IMG/VR virus record: IMGVR_UViG_3300020156_000458
Span: 1 to 36,069 of that record
Length of the DNA: 36,069 bases
Source: a virus
Reading direction: 5' to 3' (one strand)
This document shows, in pieces, positions 5,227 through 33,519 of this stretch. A program made the position numbers and the translations under genes. Numbering within the stretch: the first letter of the stretch is position 1; every line of letters starts with the position of its first letter. The notes beneath the pieces are model-generated. The model did no database searches, was not told the DNA's origin, and saw nothing but the letters and a program-made list of their open reading frames with translations.

Positions 5227-6087
5227 TCAGATCAGCTCCTCAGCGTTGATGCCCCAGCCGTAGCGGCGGGGCATGGTGGCGGTGGTAGTGGTGATGCCAA
5301 CCGTCTCCGTCAGGGCGGCGTAGACGGTGCGCCGAAAACGCACGGACGGCGCATCGTCAGGGTCGTAGACCAGAAGGAAGTCCCCGGACTTGCCCAACTG
5401 ACGATCGATTTCGAAGCCGGTGGCATAGGCTTCCGCTTCGGTCATGTGCTCGAAGGTGATAGATACTTCCCGGTAGCCGGGCCGCCTGCGCACCAGCCGC
5501 AGCCCGCCACGCGTGCGGCGGCACTCGCTGGGGTCCACCGACCGCACCTTCACCCCAAACGCCATCTTGTGCTGGGAGGCCTCGCCGGCCATGAAACGTC
5601 CGGCCTGGAAGTAACCGGCCGGGTTTGTCGCGTCGGACACATAGGTGAAGAGATAGCGGCCATAGACGGTCGACGGGGCGACATGCAGATCGACCGTGCC
5701 GCCGGGATAAGCCCCTATGTCGATGCCGGAGAATGGAAATGCGCCGAAGGGCTGCTGGCCCCACACTTCGGTCGGCGTCCACATCAGCTCGAAGCCGGTG
5801 TCATAGACCGGCGAGCTGCCGTCCGCGTGGTTGGAGACAACATGCCGGCGACGCGCGGTCTGGGTGCCGTTGTGGTTGAGCACAGCGAACATCGACAGCG
5901 GTACCAACCGTCCGAGGTCAAGCCGCCACCATGTCGCCGCTTCGGCTGTACCAATGGAGCGGGCCAGTTCCATCACGTCCTGGGTCGCGAGGTTGGACAG
6001 CGCCAGCCCCCCACCATCAACCCAAGCGCCACCGTCGAAGGCCCCGCCATCGCTAGGCTTCTTCCAGAGGACATGAAGCGGCTTCAT
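5227..6087 (-). CDS. Tail tip protein with discoidin-like N-terminus
   Basis: The 286-residue protein has an N-terminal half typical of galactose-binding (discoidin-like) folds in phage tail tips: NLAT, then WWRLDLG followed by VPLSMFAVLNHN and a strand-rich stretch. The C-terminal half is beta-rich and contains a Arg-rich REVSITFEHMTEAEAYA segment. The gene overlaps the stop of the preceding tail gene by ATGA and lies one base before the fibre start, so it is translated as part of the tail-tip block. A role in forming the distal tail or contacting surface sugar is inferred from fold and position. Confidence 0.6.
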   Translation of the reverse strand: MKPLHVLWKKPSDGGAFDGGAWVDGGGLALSNLATQDVMELARSIGTAEAATWWRLDLGRLVPLSMFAVLNHNGTQTARRRHVVSNHADGSSPVYDTGFELMWTPTEVWGQQPFGAFPFSGIDIGAYPGGTVDLHVAPSTVYGRYLFTYVSDATNPAGYFQAGRFMAGEASQHKMAFGVKVRSVDPSECRRTRGGLRLVRRRPGYREVSITFEHMTEAEAYATGFEIDRQLGKSGDFLLVYDPDDAPSVRFRRTVYAALTETVGITTTTATMPRRYGWGINAEELI

Positions 6088-7598
6088 CCCTGCACCGTCA
6101 TCTTGAGGGTTTCGTCGTTGGCGTCGCGCTCGATTTCCAGCACCAGCCCACGCCAGCCACCGGAGAGGCCGAAACGCGAGTCGGTCAGCTTCACCGTGTG
6201 CCCCACCGTAAGGCCGGGGGTCAGCGGCACGACCACGTCGAAGGCCTTGCGCTTAGCGCTGAAGAGGGAAAGCCGGCGGTCACGCTCTGCCGTGGCCGCC
6301 ACTTCGGTATCGAAGAGGGTCTTGCCCTCCTCTTCCGTTGCCAGCAGCGAGGCGCCAGCGGCGGCAGCGTTGGTCGCCACCGCGGTCCAGCGGTATTCGT
6401 TCTGGAAGGCCTCCAGATCGGCAGCGCTAACGTTGACCCTGTCCAACTCGTCAGCGGTGAAGATCACACCGAAGGGGCGGTAGCCCAGCTTCAGCGCCTT
6501 CATCCGTCGATCCACCGGGCGCGGCGTCAGGTCGATGATGGTGCGTTCTGTGAACTCAAAGTCCGCCGTTGCGGCCGGACCATCGTAACGGCCCAGCGAC
6601 AGCAGGCGGTCTTCACCGAAGCCCCAGTAGGCCCCGACCGAGTCGGCGAGCTGGTCGATTACGTCGCGCACCTTGGGCACGCTGGACCCGTCACACCAGT
6701 AGCCCAGCACCGCCGGCTGAAGCCCATTGAAGGCGGCGAAGGACACGTCCAGCAGGCTTGCCCCGGTGACCGTCGTCATGCTGGTGACGACATGGCGCAC
6801 CAGATCGGCGAAGCGATAAACCCAGGCACCGGAGACCTTCACCCCCTCCGCGTCGATGGTGAAGCGCCCATTCGGTTTCTGCCCCAGACGGATCAGTCCG
6901 GCCGTCTTGGATGTCGCGACGTTGGTGCCGGTCAGCGAGGCCGCCACCAGGGCGGTATAGGAGGCGAAATCCCCCACCGCAGCCGGATAGGTGACGCCCA
7001 TGTCGCGGGCCGCCAACAGGGAGCTGAAGCCGGCCGGATCGACCATGTAGACGTTGTTCGCCGCATTGATCAGCACTGGCTCTATCTGCCGCCGCCGGCC
7101 GATCAGCCAGGGCTTGTCCCGCCCCCTCAGCTCTGCGGTGCCATCGACCCCGCCGGTTCCGCCGAACTGCCCGCGCGAGGCCGGCACGTCCAGCAGCACC
7201 AGCAGGTCACGCAGCTGGATTTCGATTTCATCGCCCGGCACCAACTGTTCGGCCGCACCGGAGAACAGGACGGTGAAGTCAGCCAGGGCAGGCCGCTCCT
7301 GCGGGCTGTACAGGATCTCCACCAGCCGGCCATCCCAGTCCAGATCGGACAGCCAATCCAGCTTGCCGTCGTCATTGGCGAGGGTGGCGGAGCCGAAGCT
7401 GGTTTCCGAATAGCCGCCGATGGCAGAGCCGCTGAAGAGCGAGCGGCGAACCGCCAGAGGGGTTTCGATACGGCGGACGAAATAGGTGTTGGACGGACTG
7501 TCCGCCGGCTCGGAGGTGAAGCCAAGGTCGGAGAAGAAGAGAGGCCGCACAGCGCCTATGCTGGCGTCGTACGGCTCTGCACGCATCAGGTAGGGCAT
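6084..7598 (-). CDS. Tail tip / baseplate hub-like protein
   Basis: The 504-residue protein is encoded directly after the tape measure gene (4-nt gap), where siphoviruses place the distal tail and hub proteins. It opens with a beta-rich domain (TPLAVRRSLFSGSAIGGYSETSFG) and has a middle section of alternating strands, and an end with GLTVGHTVKLTDSRFGLSGGWRGLVLEIERD. That last part resembles the OB-like strands of hub proteins. No catalytic motif (peptidase or lysozyme) is visible. I assign it to the tail tip by order and fold character; a precise family name is not certain. Confidence 0.6.
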   Translation of the reverse strand: MPYLMRAEPYDASIGAVRPLFFSDLGFTSEPADSPSNTYFVRRIETPLAVRRSLFSGSAIGGYSETSFGSATLANDDGKLDWLSDLDWDGRLVEILYSPQERPALADFTVLFSGAAEQLVPGDEIEIQLRDLLVLLDVPASRGQFGGTGGVDGTAELRGRDKPWLIGRRRQIEPVLINAANNVYMVDPAGFSSLLAARDMGVTYPAAVGDFASYTALVAASLTGTNVATSKTAGLIRLGQKPNGRFTIDAEGVKVSGAWVYRFADLVRHVVTSMTTVTGASLLDVSFAAFNGLQPAVLGYWCDGSSVPKVRDVIDQLADSVGAYWGFGEDRLLSLGRYDGPAATADFEFTERTIIDLTPRPVDRRMKALKLGYRPFGVIFTADELDRVNVSAADLEAFQNEYRWTAVATNAAAAGASLLATEEEGKTLFDTEVAATAERDRRLSLFSAKRKAFDVVVPLTPGLTVGHTVKLTDSRFGLSGGWRGLVLEIERDANDETLKMTVQG

Positions 7599-7602
7599 TG
7601 GA

Positions 7603-10600
7603 TCACCCGTTCACGGCACGCCGCTGACCGACCGGCGCAGCGGTGCGGACGAGGCGCTTGGCAAGGTTGGAGATGGCCGACACCGTCTCATCGTCTCCGT
7701 CTTCGATAGCGCCAAGGATGCGCTCCAGCACGGCGACCGCACGGTCGAGCCGCTGCTCCAGCCCTGCGGTGTTGATGACGATGGGGGGGATGCTGGGCGC
7801 GCGGAGGGCGGTGACGTTGGCGCCCCAGCGGTCATTTGCCGCCTGGAAGCGCCGCGCCATCGCCAGCGAGGTTTCGTGCGGATAGACCCGCTCGCCCCCG
7901 GCCATCCGCACCAGCTCTGGTCCGCGCTCGCCCACCCAAGCCAACCCCGGCAAGGCGGACGGGGTGCCCACCGCATAGCCGGGAATGCCCCGCTCGCGCG
8001 CCCAACTCCGCATGGCGGCTTCGTAGGCGTCCGCCTTGCCATAGGCAGCCAGCCAGCTATTGACCGTCCATGGGTTAGCCTCGCCGGTGTAGCCGACCGA
8101 CCGCAGGATCGACAGCCAGTCCTCCGTGGGAACCTTGTCGCCCAGTGCCGCCACGTCAGCCGAAGCGGTGTAGCGGAAGGGGTTGTTGCCCCAGTCCAGC
8201 CGTTCGTCGGCGGCACGCAGAACCTGATAGGCGGTGTCCGGTCCCTGCGCCCGCGCCCAGGTCATGATCCCCGGCAGGGTTCCGGTCGACAGGCCCGCGA
8301 GCATTTCCGACAGGGTTGCGCTCGACTTGGTGCCGGTCAGCTGTTGCAGCGGGGTCAGCGCCGCCTGCCACACGGCATAGCTCTGGCTCATGATGCTGTT
8401 GAGGTCGACCAGCGCCCCATATTGCTTCTGCCCCAGGCTGGCGGCTTCCGCCCGCTGGCGCTGAAGCTCCTTCAGCGCAGCATTTGCGGTGTCGAGTTGC
8501 TGCTGGGCGGTGTCCACACCCTGCGCCTGGAGACCGCCGAACTCGGCAAAGACCTGCCGCACCCGGTCATAGTCGCTGGTGTCGGTCGAGCCGAAGAAGC
8601 CCTTGGCGAGCTGCACCAGCGCCGGGCCGAGCTGCTGAAGGGTGGCGAGCGCCGCCGTCTTCTCCGCCTCGCTGGCGGCGGGGCTTTTGGCCGTCTGATA
8701 GGCAGCCTCAAACTGCCGGCGGGCTTCAGCCAACCGGTCGCGGGCGTTCAGCGGGCTGTTGTCGTTGACGGCAAGTGCATCATAGGCCTGCCGGAACTGT
8801 TGTGCCGCCTGCGCGCCCGCTTCCAGGCTTTCGACCAGCGCCTGTTGCGCGGTGATCTGGGCATCGTAGGCGGCCAGCACATCGGCCTGCGCGAGGCTGA
8901 ATGCCTGCGCGGCATATTCGGCCGCCTGCACCTGCCGCAGCAGGTCGGTGCTGTAGCCTGCCGCCTTGGCATCGGCCAGTTCCTTGGCCTGTTGCTGTTG
9001 CAGCGCCAGCAGAGCGGAGTCGCGGTCACGACCGAGCGTAGCGTACATCCGGCTGTTGATGTCTGCCTGATAGCTGGCGAGCGCCTGCGCAGCCTCCGTT
9101 GTCGCCGAAGCCGCATCCCGCAGCGAAACAGCCAGGTCGTGGATATCGTCGGAGAAGCTGGCCGCGACGATGTCGAGCTGCGAGGCGTCCAAGCCGGTCA
9201 GCAAGGATTTCAGCGAGGCGTCGAAAATCTCGGTGGCGCGTTGGGTGCTGAGACCGACCGCGGTCAGGTTGCGGGCGTTGATGTCCCGCGTCTTCATCAG
9301 ATCGTTGATGGAGTTGAGGTAGTCCCGGCCCAGCGCCGTATTGAGCTGGCGGTTGGCATCGTCCTGCACACTCGCCTTGATGCGGGCGCGGGTCTCCGCC
9401 TCGATCTGATCGACAGTGGCAGCCAGGGCTGGGTTGAGCTGCTGATAGGCCTCCCGCAGCGCCTGGAACTGGCCGGTCAGGGCGGCCATGTCCTGTTCGG
9501 CCTGGGTATAGTCCGGCGGGTTGCGGAGCTGGTCGAGGTAAGCGTTCAACTGATCGGTGGCGAGCCTCACATACTCGCTGCCCAGGTCCAGCCCCTTCGC
9601 CCGCTCCAGTTCGTCCAGCATCGGCTTCAGCGATTCGGCGGTCGCTTCCTTGGCCGCCTTGGTGAAGCTGGCGAGCGACTTGTCGAGGGCGGCCAGGGCG
9701 GTGGTGCCGGCATCGATGCCGGCACCCAGCGCGATGTCCTTGGCGGCATCCTCGTAGCTGGTCGCCTTGGTGTTCCGAATGGCCTTGGTGACGGCAGCCC
9801 CGGCGTTGGTCAGGCCGCCGGCTTCAAGCAGGGTGTAGCGCAGCAGGTTGCCCAGCGCGTCGTCCCCTGTGCCGAACTCCTTGTAGGGTACGCTGCCGCC
9901 GACGTAGAGGCCCTTGGCCGCGGTCTGGCCGATGCCGAAATCCTGCTTCAGCGTGCCGCCGCCGGCCGCTGCCGCGGTGAAGATCGTGCTGAAGGCGGTG
10001 CCCAGCTTCTGGGCATCTTCGATCTTGCCGTCGTTGTCGACCTGGAAGTTGCCCGCCGTGGCGCTCTTGCCGCCGGCATTGATGGTGATGTCCGCCGATG
10101 CGGTGGGACCGACGGATGCCTTCTGGGTGCCGATCATGCCCATGATCAGACCGACCACGGCACCGATGGCCGCTCCCACCGGCCCGCCCAGCGACGACAG
10201 GCCGATGACGGTCGAGAGGTAGCCCGCCCCGGCACCGGCCAGAGCGCCAGCAGCCCCGCCCACGACCTTGCTGTTGGTCTTGGTGCCGAGCCAGCCGCCG
10301 ACCAGACCGCCGCCCAGGGCACCGGCCCCGGCGGCACTCAGGTAGGCCGAGAGGCCGCCCGTGATGCCGCCGACCGTGGTGCTTCCGGTCGCCGCCGCGT
10401 TGCTGACACCGCCCAGCGTCGGCATGACGCCGATGTCGGCAGCCAGCCCGCCGGCTGTGGTGGTCATCATGGTTCCCTGGGTGCCGGCCATCGTGCCGAT
10501 TCCCAGGGTCGAGTAGCCGAACTTGTCGATGGCGTTGGTAATGCCGCCAGTCAGCCCCAGCTTGTCCATAGCCCAGCCGCCGGCCTTCGACACGGCGGTG

Positions 10601-26364: not shown

Positions 26365-27072
26365 TCATGAACCCACCTCCCCGGCGTCCGCCGTGAATTT
26401 GTCCGTCTGGTTCCCCCAGACGTCGAAGCCCAGCCAGGATTGGCGGGCGAATAGCTCGCACGCGGGACCGCTGGGGATCAGCCGGCGCGCCATGGCGTAT
26501 TGCTCATCAGGCTTCCGGGAATGCTCGCGCGTGACCGCGTCCAGAGCGTCGCCACCGTCCAGCAGGATGCCGCGTTCCGACGTGCAGCCCGGCCCATAAG
26601 GCGGTTCACCGATGGCCCACAAGGTGACATGCTCGGTCGAGACCCGGACGACATAGCCGGGGCCGAAGGCCAGCTTGCCGGAGGGGGTGCGCTTCACCCA
26701 GGGGAAGCCGGTGACGTACCGGAAGCCCCACACCTCCCCCACGGCGATGGCCTGGGGCAGCATCGCCCATGTGCCCCACATCCACAGCAGGCAGCCCCGC
26801 GGGTTGGCGAGCTGCTGCACCGGCAGAGCCTTGATGGCGTCCACCGGCATGCAGGCGTAATGCGCCACCGGGTTCTTGCCCTCGCCCTTAGCGGAGCGGT
26901 TGTAGAAGCGCCACGGCGGGTCGGCCATGATCAGGCGATACGCCGCGGGGGCGAGGTTGCCCCACTGCCACGATGCAGGCTTGCCCGACAGCGATACCGC
27001 CCGAGAGGGAGCATCGCCCCCAATCGCAGGAAGATCGAACAGGAGGGGGCCAGGGGAGGTTGACTTGGTCAC
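26365..27072 (-). CDS. MT-A70 family DNA adenine methyltransferase
   Basis: The 235-residue protein has the catalytic DPPW motif (residues 51-54) after YRLIMA, a VAHYACMPVDAIKALPV segment typical of phage MT-A70 enzymes, LLWMWGTWAMLP and a FELFARQ-type SAM-fold strand (CELFARQSW). It transfers a methyl group to N6 of adenine in DNA. In phages this usually protects DNA from host nucleases. The GTG start at 27072 overlaps the upstream stop as GTGA, so it is part of the replication operon. The target sequence cannot be predicted from the protein alone. Confidence 0.9.
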   Translation of the reverse strand: MTKSTSPGPLLFDLPAIGGDAPSRAVSLSGKPASWQWGNLAPAAYRLIMADPPWRFYNRSAKGEGKNPVAHYACMPVDAIKALPVQQLANPRGCLLWMWGTWAMLPQAIAVGEVWGFRYVTGFPWVKRTPSGKLAFGPGYVVRVSTEHVTLWAIGEPPYGPGCTSERGILLDGGDALDAVTREHSRKPDEQYAMARRLIPSGPACELFARQSWLGFDVWGNQTDKFTADAGEVGS

Positions 27073-31148: not shown

Positions 31149-31186
31149 GGATAAATTTACCCCTTTTGGCAAGGGTAAATTTATCC
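31149..31186. promoter_or_regulatory. Operator pair in cI-cro intergenic region
   Basis: Two 14-bp sites face each other: GGATAAATTTACCC (31149-31162) and GGGTAAATTTATCC (31173-31186). With one flanking base they form a perfect 15-bp inverted repeat around a 10-bp centre. Each site is itself a near-palindrome of GGGTAnnnnTACCC. The pair lies between the divergent cI and cro-position genes and almost certainly controls both. Confidence 0.85.
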
Positions 31187-31207: not shown

Positions 31208-31221
31208 GGGTAAGTTTCCCC
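31208..31221. promoter_or_regulatory. Third operator-like site next to cI start
   Basis: GGGTAAGTTTCCCC matches GGGTAnnnnTACCC with one mismatch and ends 1 nt before the cI ATG. A bound repressor here would block its own gene. A lone GGGTA half-site is at 31191-31195. Confidence 0.6.
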
Positions 31222-31222
31222 A

Positions 31223-31945
31223 ATGGCTAAGAATCAGGTTAGACCTTCCGAGACACCCATTGGCCGCGAAATTAGGCGCCGAATGGATATCTTTGGCTGG
31301 AGTATCGCAGAGTTAGAGCGCCGGGCCGAGTTGAGTGAAGGCGGCGCTAAGAACATTATTTACGGAAAGTCTAAGAACCCCCGCGCAGATACGTTAAAGA
31401 AGATTGCAAAAGCGCTGGGCTGCACGACTAATGACTTATCTCGCGATGATATCGGCGAGGACACTATTGCTAATACTCCAGATGTTCCTGCGGATGTATT
31501 TGGCGGGTCGAGCGACCACATCTTAAACGGCGGGATGCCCATTACTGAACTTGATGTTCGGGCTGGAGCTGGCCCAGGAACTCTAACCGAGGAAAATACT
31601 GCGACGCACACATGGCGTGTGCCCACGGAAGTAATTCGCGGGTACACGTCTGCTCCATCTGAAGAACTCAAGATCATTACGGTTTATGGTGACTCAATGG
31701 AGCCAACCTTGATGCCAGGGCAGCGCATCATGGTTGACATCGCTGACAGAACACCGTCACCACCAGGGCTATTTGTTGTTTGGGACGGTCTTGGCCTTGT
31801 GGTGAAGCGGCTGCAGGTTATCCCTCACAGCGATCCCGTTTGCGTCCGCATTTCCTCGGACAATCCCCGATACGAACCTTATGAACGCACGCTAGAGGAA
31901 GCTCATATCCAGGGACGTGTCATTGGTGGCTGGCGTTGGATGTAG
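31223..31945 (+). CDS. CI-type repressor, XRE HTH plus S24 peptidase
   Basis: The 240-residue protein has an N-terminal XRE helix-turn-helix (about 14-72) and a C-terminal LexA/S24 domain (about 108-240). The nucleophile Ser158 (GDSMEPTL) and Lys195 (LVVKR) of the self-cleavage dyad are in place, and an Ala-Gly site lies at 114-117, so RecA-dependent cleavage and prophage induction are expected. No ribosome site precedes the ATG; the third operator lies there instead, so translation may be leaderless or use an alternative start. Base composition is lower in GC than in the structural genes. It should keep both early promoters shut in the lysogen. Confidence 0.93.
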   Translation: MAKNQVRPSETPIGREIRRRMDIFGWSIAELERRAELSEGGAKNIIYGKSKNPRADTLKKIAKALGCTTNDLSRDDIGEDTIANTPDVPADVFGGSSDHILNGGMPITELDVRAGAGPGTLTEENTATHTWRVPTEVIRGYTSAPSEELKIITVYGDSMEPTLMPGQRIMVDIADRTPSPPGLFVVWDGLGLVVKRLQVIPHSDPVCVRISSDNPRYEPYERTLEEAHIQGRVIGGWRWM

Positions 31946-31981
31946 TGTGTTCACCGGTAGAGTTGATGGTTTTGAAGGGGC

Positions 31982-32009
31982 GTGGAGAGTCAGATAATGG
32001 ATTCTCCAC
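31982..32009. terminator. Possible two-way terminator between cI and cargo gene
   Basis: GTGGAGAGTC (31982-31991) and GATTCTCCAC (32000-32009) pair with one wobble pair and an 8-nt loop. The sequence on either side is AT-rich but has no long T run. It lies between two genes that point at each other, so it may end both transcripts. Confidence 0.5.
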
Positions 32010-32023
32010 ACCCAGATTTAAAT

Positions 32024-33013
32024 TTAAGCTTTAGACACTCCGACGATTTCTGCAACTTTATCCACAAAACACACCGTTCCATCGTCGATGGAATACCGTA
32101 GTAATCGGATTCCTAGTTGATGCAGAACCTCGCGGTCTAACGGTGTGGGGTCGCCGGGTAATACAACAACGAGGACGCCAGGACTGCTAAGTAGGGCTTT
32201 GTAGAAAAATAATTGTCCAATAGCAGTGTATATCGAATATGGCGTTACCTCCGTTTTCACTTCAAACAAACCAATCGCTTTTCCCTCGTCTCCGTAAAAG
32301 AGGTCAGGCCCACGCCGCATCTGGCGTTCATCAGATGGGGAAAGGCCTATTATTGTTAGCTCCTCCGCTAGAGCATTAACAACAACATCGTGAACTGGAT
32401 CGACAGTTCTAGGATCTCTCGCCGGAATTTCATATCTCTTCGGCAATTTGGCTTGAAACAAACTGTGGTTTGTTTTTCCCTCTGCACCCGCTTCAATGTC
32501 TTCCCAATAACGCCTTACGCGGGCGCAAGCTTTAATATAGTCTTCTATATCATCAAGAAAGTTTTCATCATCTAAGCATGCAACTTTGTAGTATTCTCTC
32601 GAAACTTTGCTGCTAAGCTGGACATTTTCTCTCTTTGTCCCAAGGTCAAATGCCCTATCGAACATATCTGTTTTGATCGCCTTAGGTTTAGCTTTTAGGT
32701 ACCCCCAGTGCAGTAACCAGCGTTTAGCGCCATCCTGAACAAGCTGGCCCGTAAAACCTTCGCGAGTCCCAGAAAATGGCATATTGATCTGAACAACACG
32801 TTTAGTAGGCTCATTACCGCGTAGGAGACCGAACTCAAACCAGTGCTTTTCACCATTCTTGTCTGCCCAATAGTCCATCCAGATTCCACGATCTGGTACC
32901 CCAAAACGCCCGCTGCGGCCAAAGCGGAATGCACTTGGAGCGGTGCGGAAAAGGGATTTCAGATCATCAGCGGCCTTAATCAGGCTTCTTTCTGCGCTCA
33001 CGGGCTTCAACAT
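32024..33013 (-). CDS. PD-(D/E)XK nuclease-like cargo protein, possible defence gene
   Basis: The 329-residue protein has a C-terminal region with the PD-(D/E)XK pattern: an upstream helix (HDVVVNALAEELT, 208-220), GPDLFYGD with Asp237, IGLFEVK with Glu251 and Lys253, and a helix with AIGQLFFYKAL (264-274). The N-terminal half (about 25-110) is aromatic and beta-rich and may be a sensor or target domain. It lies between cI and the rightward promoter, is AT-richer than the phage around it, and points opposite to cI. This is the layout of a lysogenic conversion (moron) gene, often superinfection or plasmid defence. No exact family is recognised; activity is inferred. Confidence 0.65.
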   Translation of the reverse strand: MLKPVSAERSLIKAADDLKSLFRTAPSAFRFGRSGRFGVPDRGIWMDYWADKNGEKHWFEFGLLRGNEPTKRVVQINMPFSGTREGFTGQLVQDGAKRWLLHWGYLKAKPKAIKTDMFDRAFDLGTKRENVQLSSKVSREYYKVACLDDENFLDDIEDYIKACARVRRYWEDIEAGAEGKTNHSLFQAKLPKRYEIPARDPRTVDPVHDVVVNALAEELTIIGLSPSDERQMRRGPDLFYGDEGKAIGLFEVKTEVTPYSIYTAIGQLFFYKALLSSPGVLVVVLPGDPTPLDREVLHQLGIRLLRYSIDDGTVCFVDKVAEIVGVSKA

Positions 33014-33184: not shown

Positions 33185-33236
33185 GGGTATAGATACCCCA
33201 ATCACGCTTGACAGGGTATATTTACCCGAATTAGAC
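33185..33236 (+). promoter_or_regulatory. Repressor-controlled rightward promoter with two operators
   Basis: GGGTATAGATACCC (33185-33198) and GGGTATATTTACCC (33214-33227) repeat the cI operator pattern. A perfect -35 box TTGACA (33208-33213) lies just before the second site, and the site fills the 17-bp spacer up to TTAGAC (33231-33236), a weak -10. Repressor bound here would exclude RNA polymerase. The promoter points at the small genes and the integrase. Confidence 0.8.
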
Positions 33237-33309: not shown

Positions 33310-33519
33310 ATGAAGCACCGCCGTATAATGCGCAGCCCTTCCGCCCTACATGCCACCGCCCGCGCCATGGGCCGCAAGATTGCCGACCTGGGCGGCTCCG
33401 GCGACGCGGTGACGGAAGCCGACCTGCTGACCGACTTCAGCGCCGCCGACATCGCCGCCCATGCCGAAGCCGCCCGCGGCTACGCGCGGTCAATACTGGG
33501 CAGTCGCTCCGTCGCCTGA
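33310..33519 (+). CDS. Conserved small phage protein, first gene of rightward operon
   Basis: The 69-residue protein has a helical core with MGRKIADLGGSGDAVTEADLLTDFSAADIAAHAEAARGYAR. Proteins of this shape (EADLL then FSAADI and a run of A/R helices) are found near repressor regions in alphaproteobacterial prophages; no function is known to me. It is the first gene after the operator-controlled promoter, so it is made on induction. A GGA element about 10 nt before the ATG is weak. Confidence 0.6.
   Translation: MKHRRIMRSPSALHATARAMGRKIADLGGSGDAVTEADLLTDFSAADIAAHAEAARGYARSILGSRSVA

Follow-up and report, generated by a model that had tools for sequence, protein, structure and literature searches.

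A putative defence nuclease gene, foreign-looking cargo beside the repressor of a temperate phage

What does a protein of 329 amino acids, P0001, do at the locus of a temperate phage where its gene lies between the cI-like repressor gene and the right operators? The gene is part of a 36,069-base IMG/VR virus record, analysed here over its full length and called the window. An earlier note on this DNA had read the gene as an AT-rich moron that encodes a PD-(D/E)XK-like nuclease with an unfamiliar N-terminal domain. We consider it probable, at roughly 60%, that P0001 is an imported, single-gene, putative defence nuclease, carried as cargo of the immunity region and expressed in the lysogen.

Prophage-borne defence cargo is an already known kind. 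Genes 30-31 of mycobacteriophage Sbash are given as a lysogenically expressed prophage defence with features in common with RexAB (PMC6426596), and the P2/P4 hotspots hold variable temperate-phage genes with a known or supposed action against other phages in the lysogen (PMC9122126). Like these, the P0001 gene is a variable gene of a temperate phage; unlike Sbash 30-31, which are not described as a nuclease in that part of the source, P0001 is a predicted nuclease and its gene is placed between cI and the right operators. Among the titles and abstract openings of the literature, no description of the P0001 nuclease family was found.

The immunity region and its variable slot

The window comes from a temperate tailed phage. 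Terminase matches were found, a phage integrase lies near the right end, and most of the structural-type genes, read by eye, are on the minus strand. The reading frame for P0001 opens with ATG and was present exactly as the earlier note had given it (Table 1). It is convergent, tail to tail, with the gene for the cI-like repressor, the two being 78 bp apart, and the stem-loop in this gap is a possible two-way terminator for both genes.

Table 1. Features of the immunity region and of the P0001 gene, in window positions
Feature	Position	Strand	Basis
Left operator palindrome GGATAAATTTACCC	31149-31162		palindrome scan
Left operator palindrome GGGTAAATTTATCC	31173-31186		palindrome scan
Left operator-like site GGGTAAGTTTCCCC, immediately 5' of cI	31208-31221		palindrome scan
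cI-like repressor, HTH and Peptidase S24 domain	31223-31945	+	domain matches (Pfam)
Stem-loop between the tail-to-tail cI and nuclease genes	31978-32013		folding z -2.5 (plus), -4.0 (minus)
P0001, 329 aa: unclassified N-terminal part and PD-(D/E)XK nuclease	32024-33013	-	ORF list, alignment
C-terminal PD-(D/E)XK nuclease domain, residues about 205-329	32027-32401	-	motif conservation; homologue model
Catalytic motif D237 ... E251-x-K253	32255-32305	-	invariant in 27/27 members
N-terminal conserved region, residues about 30-165	32519-32926	-	alignment; no known family
Right operator palindrome GGGTATAGATACCC	33185-33198		palindrome scan
Right operator palindrome GGGTATATTTACCC	33214-33227		palindrome scan
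69-aa ORF, right border of the variable slot	33310-33519	+	DNA conserved in related prophages L034, L036

The window has seven palindromes of the form GGGTA-N4-TACCC, with one mismatch at most, where 0.31 would be expected, and five of the seven fall in the immunity region. Those at 31149, 31173, 31208, 33185 and 33214 thus bracket the repressor and the nuclease, and the placement of the gene between cI and the rightward operators, as claimed earlier, was correct. A TTGACA at 33208-33213 directly precedes the last of these palindromes and was read by eye as the -35 element of a promoter facing right; it was absent from the promoters predicted by the promoter scan. The nuclease gene itself runs leftward, pointing away from the right operators, and its position between these and cI suggests that it is transcribed in the lysogen.

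The base composition of the gene sets it apart. The GC content of the frame is 0.470. Outside 31.1-33.3 kb the window has a GC content of 0.669, and the lowest value of any 990-bp stretch there is 0.602. The GC3 of the frame is 0.43, compared to 0.76-0.88 for eight other phage genes. The nuclease gene is foreign-looking cargo. The cI-like repressor gene is likewise AT-rich (GC 0.527, GC3 0.52), and we therefore assign the odd composition to the whole repressor-plus-cargo module; a composition unlike that of the phage genes, as the earlier note had it, holds for the nuclease but is not specific to it.

Searching viral contigs with the primase/helicase-like protein of the window phage (named by eye) gave seven loci, of which four (L033-L036) have backbone DNA in common with the window; the other three (L037-L039) are only distantly related. 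The DNA matches of L034 and L036 extend up to 30.8 kb and begin again from 33.31 kb, so that the part holding cI and the nuclease gene is left uncovered. The slot is filled in L036 (784-2025) and L033 (24-989) by a gene with a WYL and a weak TerB match, which lies beside a small repressor-like ORF and also points toward it, while no clear large gene was seen by eye in L034 and L035. Over the compared stretches of L032-L039, tblastn with the nuclease (E 1) gave no match in any of the eight loci, so that among the four related prophages the slot holds the WYL-TerB gene in two, no large gene in two and the nuclease in none. Composition and slot comparison both mark the P0001 gene as variable cargo of foreign appearance at a prophage position that is itself conserved, which is the moron position that had been proposed. 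A search of plasmid DNA for a relative of the phage backbone found none.

A two-part family with a predicted nuclease fold

P0001 consists of two parts. No match to the protein was found in Pfam (E 1), PADLOC-DB 2.0.0, PHROGs, NCBIfam or PDB sequences, and the N-terminal half by itself had no counterpart in any of these libraries and no detected modified-base reading domain. The N-terminal profile picked up two acetyl-CoA carboxylase chains in the PDB at E 0.75, which we took as chance. The PDB sequence profile of the protein returned three chains up to E 10, of which two are keratin and the third, 2eo0, aligns over the catalytic motif at a nonsignificant E of 0.29; we take 2eo0 to be ST1444, a Hjc-type resolvase.

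Homologues were nevertheless collected, and the alignment and tree comprise 27 members, P0001 and 26 homologues that are 17-30% identical to it, one of which lies on a second viral contig (L056). D237, E251, K253, G266, Q267 and G104 are invariant in all 27, G266 and Q267 belonging to a GQLFFY helix, and L268 and L215 (26/27), G62 (25/27) and H208 (23/27) are nearly so. The D ... E-x-K motif of the PD-(D/E)XK nuclease superfamily is hence present in every member. The earlier note had picked the right residues as the nuclease core, Asp237, Glu251, Lys253 and a Q-containing helix, and had named lack of their conservation among homologues as what would speak against it; they are conserved without exception. 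In the N-terminal region, the conserved positions are W45, F61-G62, V74, I76-N77, D94, H102 and G104. At one further position, a glutamate found in 26 of the 27 members is Lys189 in P0001, the sole exception. Left out of these counts were L004, which is frameshifted and of which only the first open piece was aligned, unmended, five partial or weak matches (L012, L013, L019, L020 and L021) and the plasmid matches H40, H47, H48 and H49.

The family is thinly spread. Tblastn of P0001 against 50,697 phage records found nothing, and neither single-sequence scans with P0001 over genome contigs and viral contigs, viral contig scans with queries A1, A4, A7 and A8, nor tblastn of the Microvirga homologue against phages gave anything useful. 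Against plasmids, tblastn found four distant relatives, and further searches added more. Whole genomes with a match numbered 7/385, 1/43, 7/398, 1/78 and 5/298, low rates from sets that overlap and that each include their own centre. The named members, patchy in occurrence, belong to Alphaproteobacteria, Betaproteobacteria and Hymenobacter (Bacteroidota), and the homologues reside on plasmids and other mobile DNA, in defence loci and in another phage. In the tree, P0001 sits on a long branch (1.99), and its clade includes members from Roseomonas, Microvirga and a Rhodospirillales MAG. The pairing of this N-terminal region with the nuclease is a recurring two-part architecture and not peculiar to the window phage. 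The statement that no named system has this pairing thus stands for the libraries searched, while the pairing itself recurs across the family.

Several homologues have features of their own. Two from Rhizobium (L054:4473-5426 and L004:5509-6735) have a different or extra start region of about 150 aa with an IAIGWS motif and no Pfam match, which may be a second recognition domain; the extra region of L054 gave nothing below E 0.12 against the PDB. The G359 homologue (L010:442-3249) sits between two closely similar nitroreductase-like reading frames. In L057 and L059, by eye, one homologue is found amid conjugation genes (TrbE- and VirD4-like) and one adjoins phage tail-like genes.

For the fold, we turned to the phage-borne homologue of L056 (21% identical to P0001), the AlphaFold model of P0001 itself (two sequences) having a pLDDT of 36, too low for use. 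The three-sequence model of the homologue has a mean pLDDT of 47.5, with block means of 59-82 over residues 221-339, and its C-terminal elements (residues 224-339) run helix-strand-strand-strand-helix-strand-helix-strand. The best VIA-align matches of this domain are nucleases or proteins of the same fold, among them AF1548 (Z 10.4), VC1899 (10.3), CRISPR ancillary nuclease 2 (9.9), a P. abyssi repair endonuclease (9.5), XisH-type proteins (9.4-9.5), Card1 (9.3), EndoMS (9.1), McrBC (8.3), LmuA (8.2) and NucC (8.0); AF1548, VC1899, XisH and YaeQ are of the PD-(D/E)XK fold. Since mainly residues 214-339 of the model were covered, these matches say nothing on the N-terminal fold; the N-terminal part, where Can2 and Card1 have a CARF sensor domain, was modelled with low confidence. 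Foldseek with the same model gave no match reaching E 0.001 in the PDB and one match, over 118 aa and unnamed, among viral structures (1.1e-4). By the homologue model, the C-terminal domain belongs to the PD-(D/E)XK fold, the core having been seen in the L056 protein; the structure comparison proposed in the earlier note is thus answered in favour of a nuclease-like domain for a homologue, whereas the model of P0001 was too poor to be read.

Homologues in defence neighbourhoods

Several of the homologues have neighbours known from antiviral systems. Two are directly downstream of type I restriction-modification genes, in L006 (roles by eye) and, together with a DUF6602 gene, in L024. In L025 (8716-16067) and L049 (1-6011), whose homologues are 72% identical to one another, the homologue follows MzaC-D-E as the next gene after AIPR (MzaE), and it is possibly an unlisted accessory gene of MZA operons. 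The G515 homologue was considered as MzaA or MzaB and rejected, as it is not the gene found by either model. Other homologues are near Pycsar (L052), a type VI retron RT and a ThsB-like TIR gene (L003), SIR2 and pAgo genes (L050), a NERD-kinase/PglW-like gene (L028) or a DrmA-like helicase (L002, where the gene caller preferred an opposite-strand ORF to the homologue). On the phage contig L056, a type II methyltransferase and restriction enzyme pair (5489-8022) lies between terminase- and portal-like genes, with the homologue further along; the latter matched none of the families of PADLOC-DB 2.0.0. Other homologues (for example L005, L022, L023 and L058) are surrounded by ordinary or core genes.

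As a control, up to six of the nearest called genes at 22 homologue loci were compared with those at 22 loci taken from other places in the respective record or genome. At 1e-20, the 130 proteins on the homologue side had 141 PADLOC families and the 131 control proteins 30, with models that overlap. By eye, from annotation and the PADLOC/Pfam output, with the best 25 families considered for PADLOC, a clear defence gene was present at no fewer than 8 of the 22 homologue loci (L002, L003, L024, L025, L028, L049, L050 and L052), compared to at least 3 of the 22 control loci (L071, L074 and L081; two-sided Fisher p 0.16). Ambiguous homologue loci were not counted, namely those with a kinase (L046), a Fic protein (L047), UvrD and PD-(D/E)XK (L051) or a restriction endonuclease further out (L053), and L006, L054, L056 and L057 stand outside the 22 and its pairing. 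Because the paired control is not significant, the association with defence is suggestive and not proven. As the family is often found near bacterial anti-virus systems, P0001 probably helps the infected cell to repel rival viruses.

Possible modes of action

In the defence reading, the lysogen would express the gene by leftward transcription that starts on the side of the right operators. The N-terminal domain would sense a feature found only in incoming DNA or during infection, candidate cues being a modified base, a DNA structure or ends, and the C-terminal domain would then cut DNA, with D237, E251 and K253 as the predicted metal-dependent active site. Such cutting would block superinfecting phages or plasmids. 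No methyltransferase gene adjoins the nuclease as in type II restriction-modification, the neighbours being cI and short ORFs; the distinction of self from non-self would therefore have to come from the N-terminal domain or from an infection trigger. We expect the mode to be either intrinsic discrimination, in a type IV-like manner, or an infection trigger leading to abortive infection, and prefer neither.

Type IV restriction systems (McrBC, Mrr-like) combine a nuclease with a separate recognition domain and have no methyltransferase of their own. P0001 resembles them in lacking its own methyltransferase, and McrBC is among the structural matches of the homologue, but P0001 has no detected modified-base reading domain and no NTPase partner alongside. 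With regard to MZA (PADLOC MzaA-E), which the homologues of L025 and L049 follow, the window nuclease has no adjoining MZA gene, and no large Z1, DUF4420 or AIPR genes were seen beside it when the ORFs were read by eye.

It is possible, if doubtful, that P0001 is an abortive-infection effector, inactive until infection and then degrading all the DNA of the cell, thereby stopping the multiplication of the invader. Can2, Card1, Cdn1 and NucC, whose nuclease domains have the fold of the L056 homologue (Z 8.0-9.9), are bound or activated by cyclic oligoadenylates, as the titles of the structure entries also say, and with such signal-activated nucleases as structural neighbours an inducible effector is conceivable, all the more as a constant activity without a coupled methyltransferase would be harmless only with intrinsic discrimination. 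However, only the nuclease domain is covered by these matches, and its fold is common to very many enzymes, and, unlike these proteins, P0001 has an unclassified N-terminal part and no cyclase, CRISPR or other signal gene recognised adjoining it in the window, the Pycsar genes by the L052 homologue being a single case.

An enzyme of the phage's own DNA metabolism, such as a junction resolvase or repair nuclease serving replication, is improbable. Its fold would be common to Hjc, EndoMS and SfsA, and 2eo0 is the only PDB profile match that is not a coiled coil, but the gene lies inside the immunity region, away from the replication genes, and on this position and its foreign composition we rejected a replication nuclease; moreover, the four related prophages lack the nuclease over the stretches compared, and the homologues are patchy bacterial cargo. 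Still less probable is a restriction enzyme whose methyltransferase partner is encoded elsewhere in the phage. The candidate partner, the ORF at 26365-27072, has by eye a DPPW motif, which we take to be typical of MT-A70 adenine methyltransferases, and is probably of that type; this ORF belongs, however, to the backbone common to L034 and L036, both without the nuclease over the compared stretches. As relatives without the nuclease carry the same ORF, the pair does not travel together, and we discarded it as the partner. We give equally little credence to decayed or selfish cargo that serves no function today, to which the long branch and the replacement of a family-conserved glutamate by lysine would point, since the frame is open, all catalytic residues are retained and the gene has an ordered place in the immunity region.

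A more far-reaching idea, speculative and rather unlikely as a whole, is that the N-terminal region is an undescribed sensor, so that a single polypeptide, needing neither a methyltransferase nor a second gene, distinguishes the DNA of an invader from that of the cell, and that phages, conjugative elements and plasmids exchange this module, which in addition joins type I restriction-modification and MZA systems as an extra nuclease.

What this work marks out is an unnamed nuclease family with an N-terminal region that is conserved yet undescribed in the libraries searched, and with D237, E251 and K253 as clear catalytic residues for mutation. If active, P0001 would be a compact one-gene defence, possibly with a novel means of detecting foreign DNA or infection, and the prophage would carry it at the very locus that sets its immunity.
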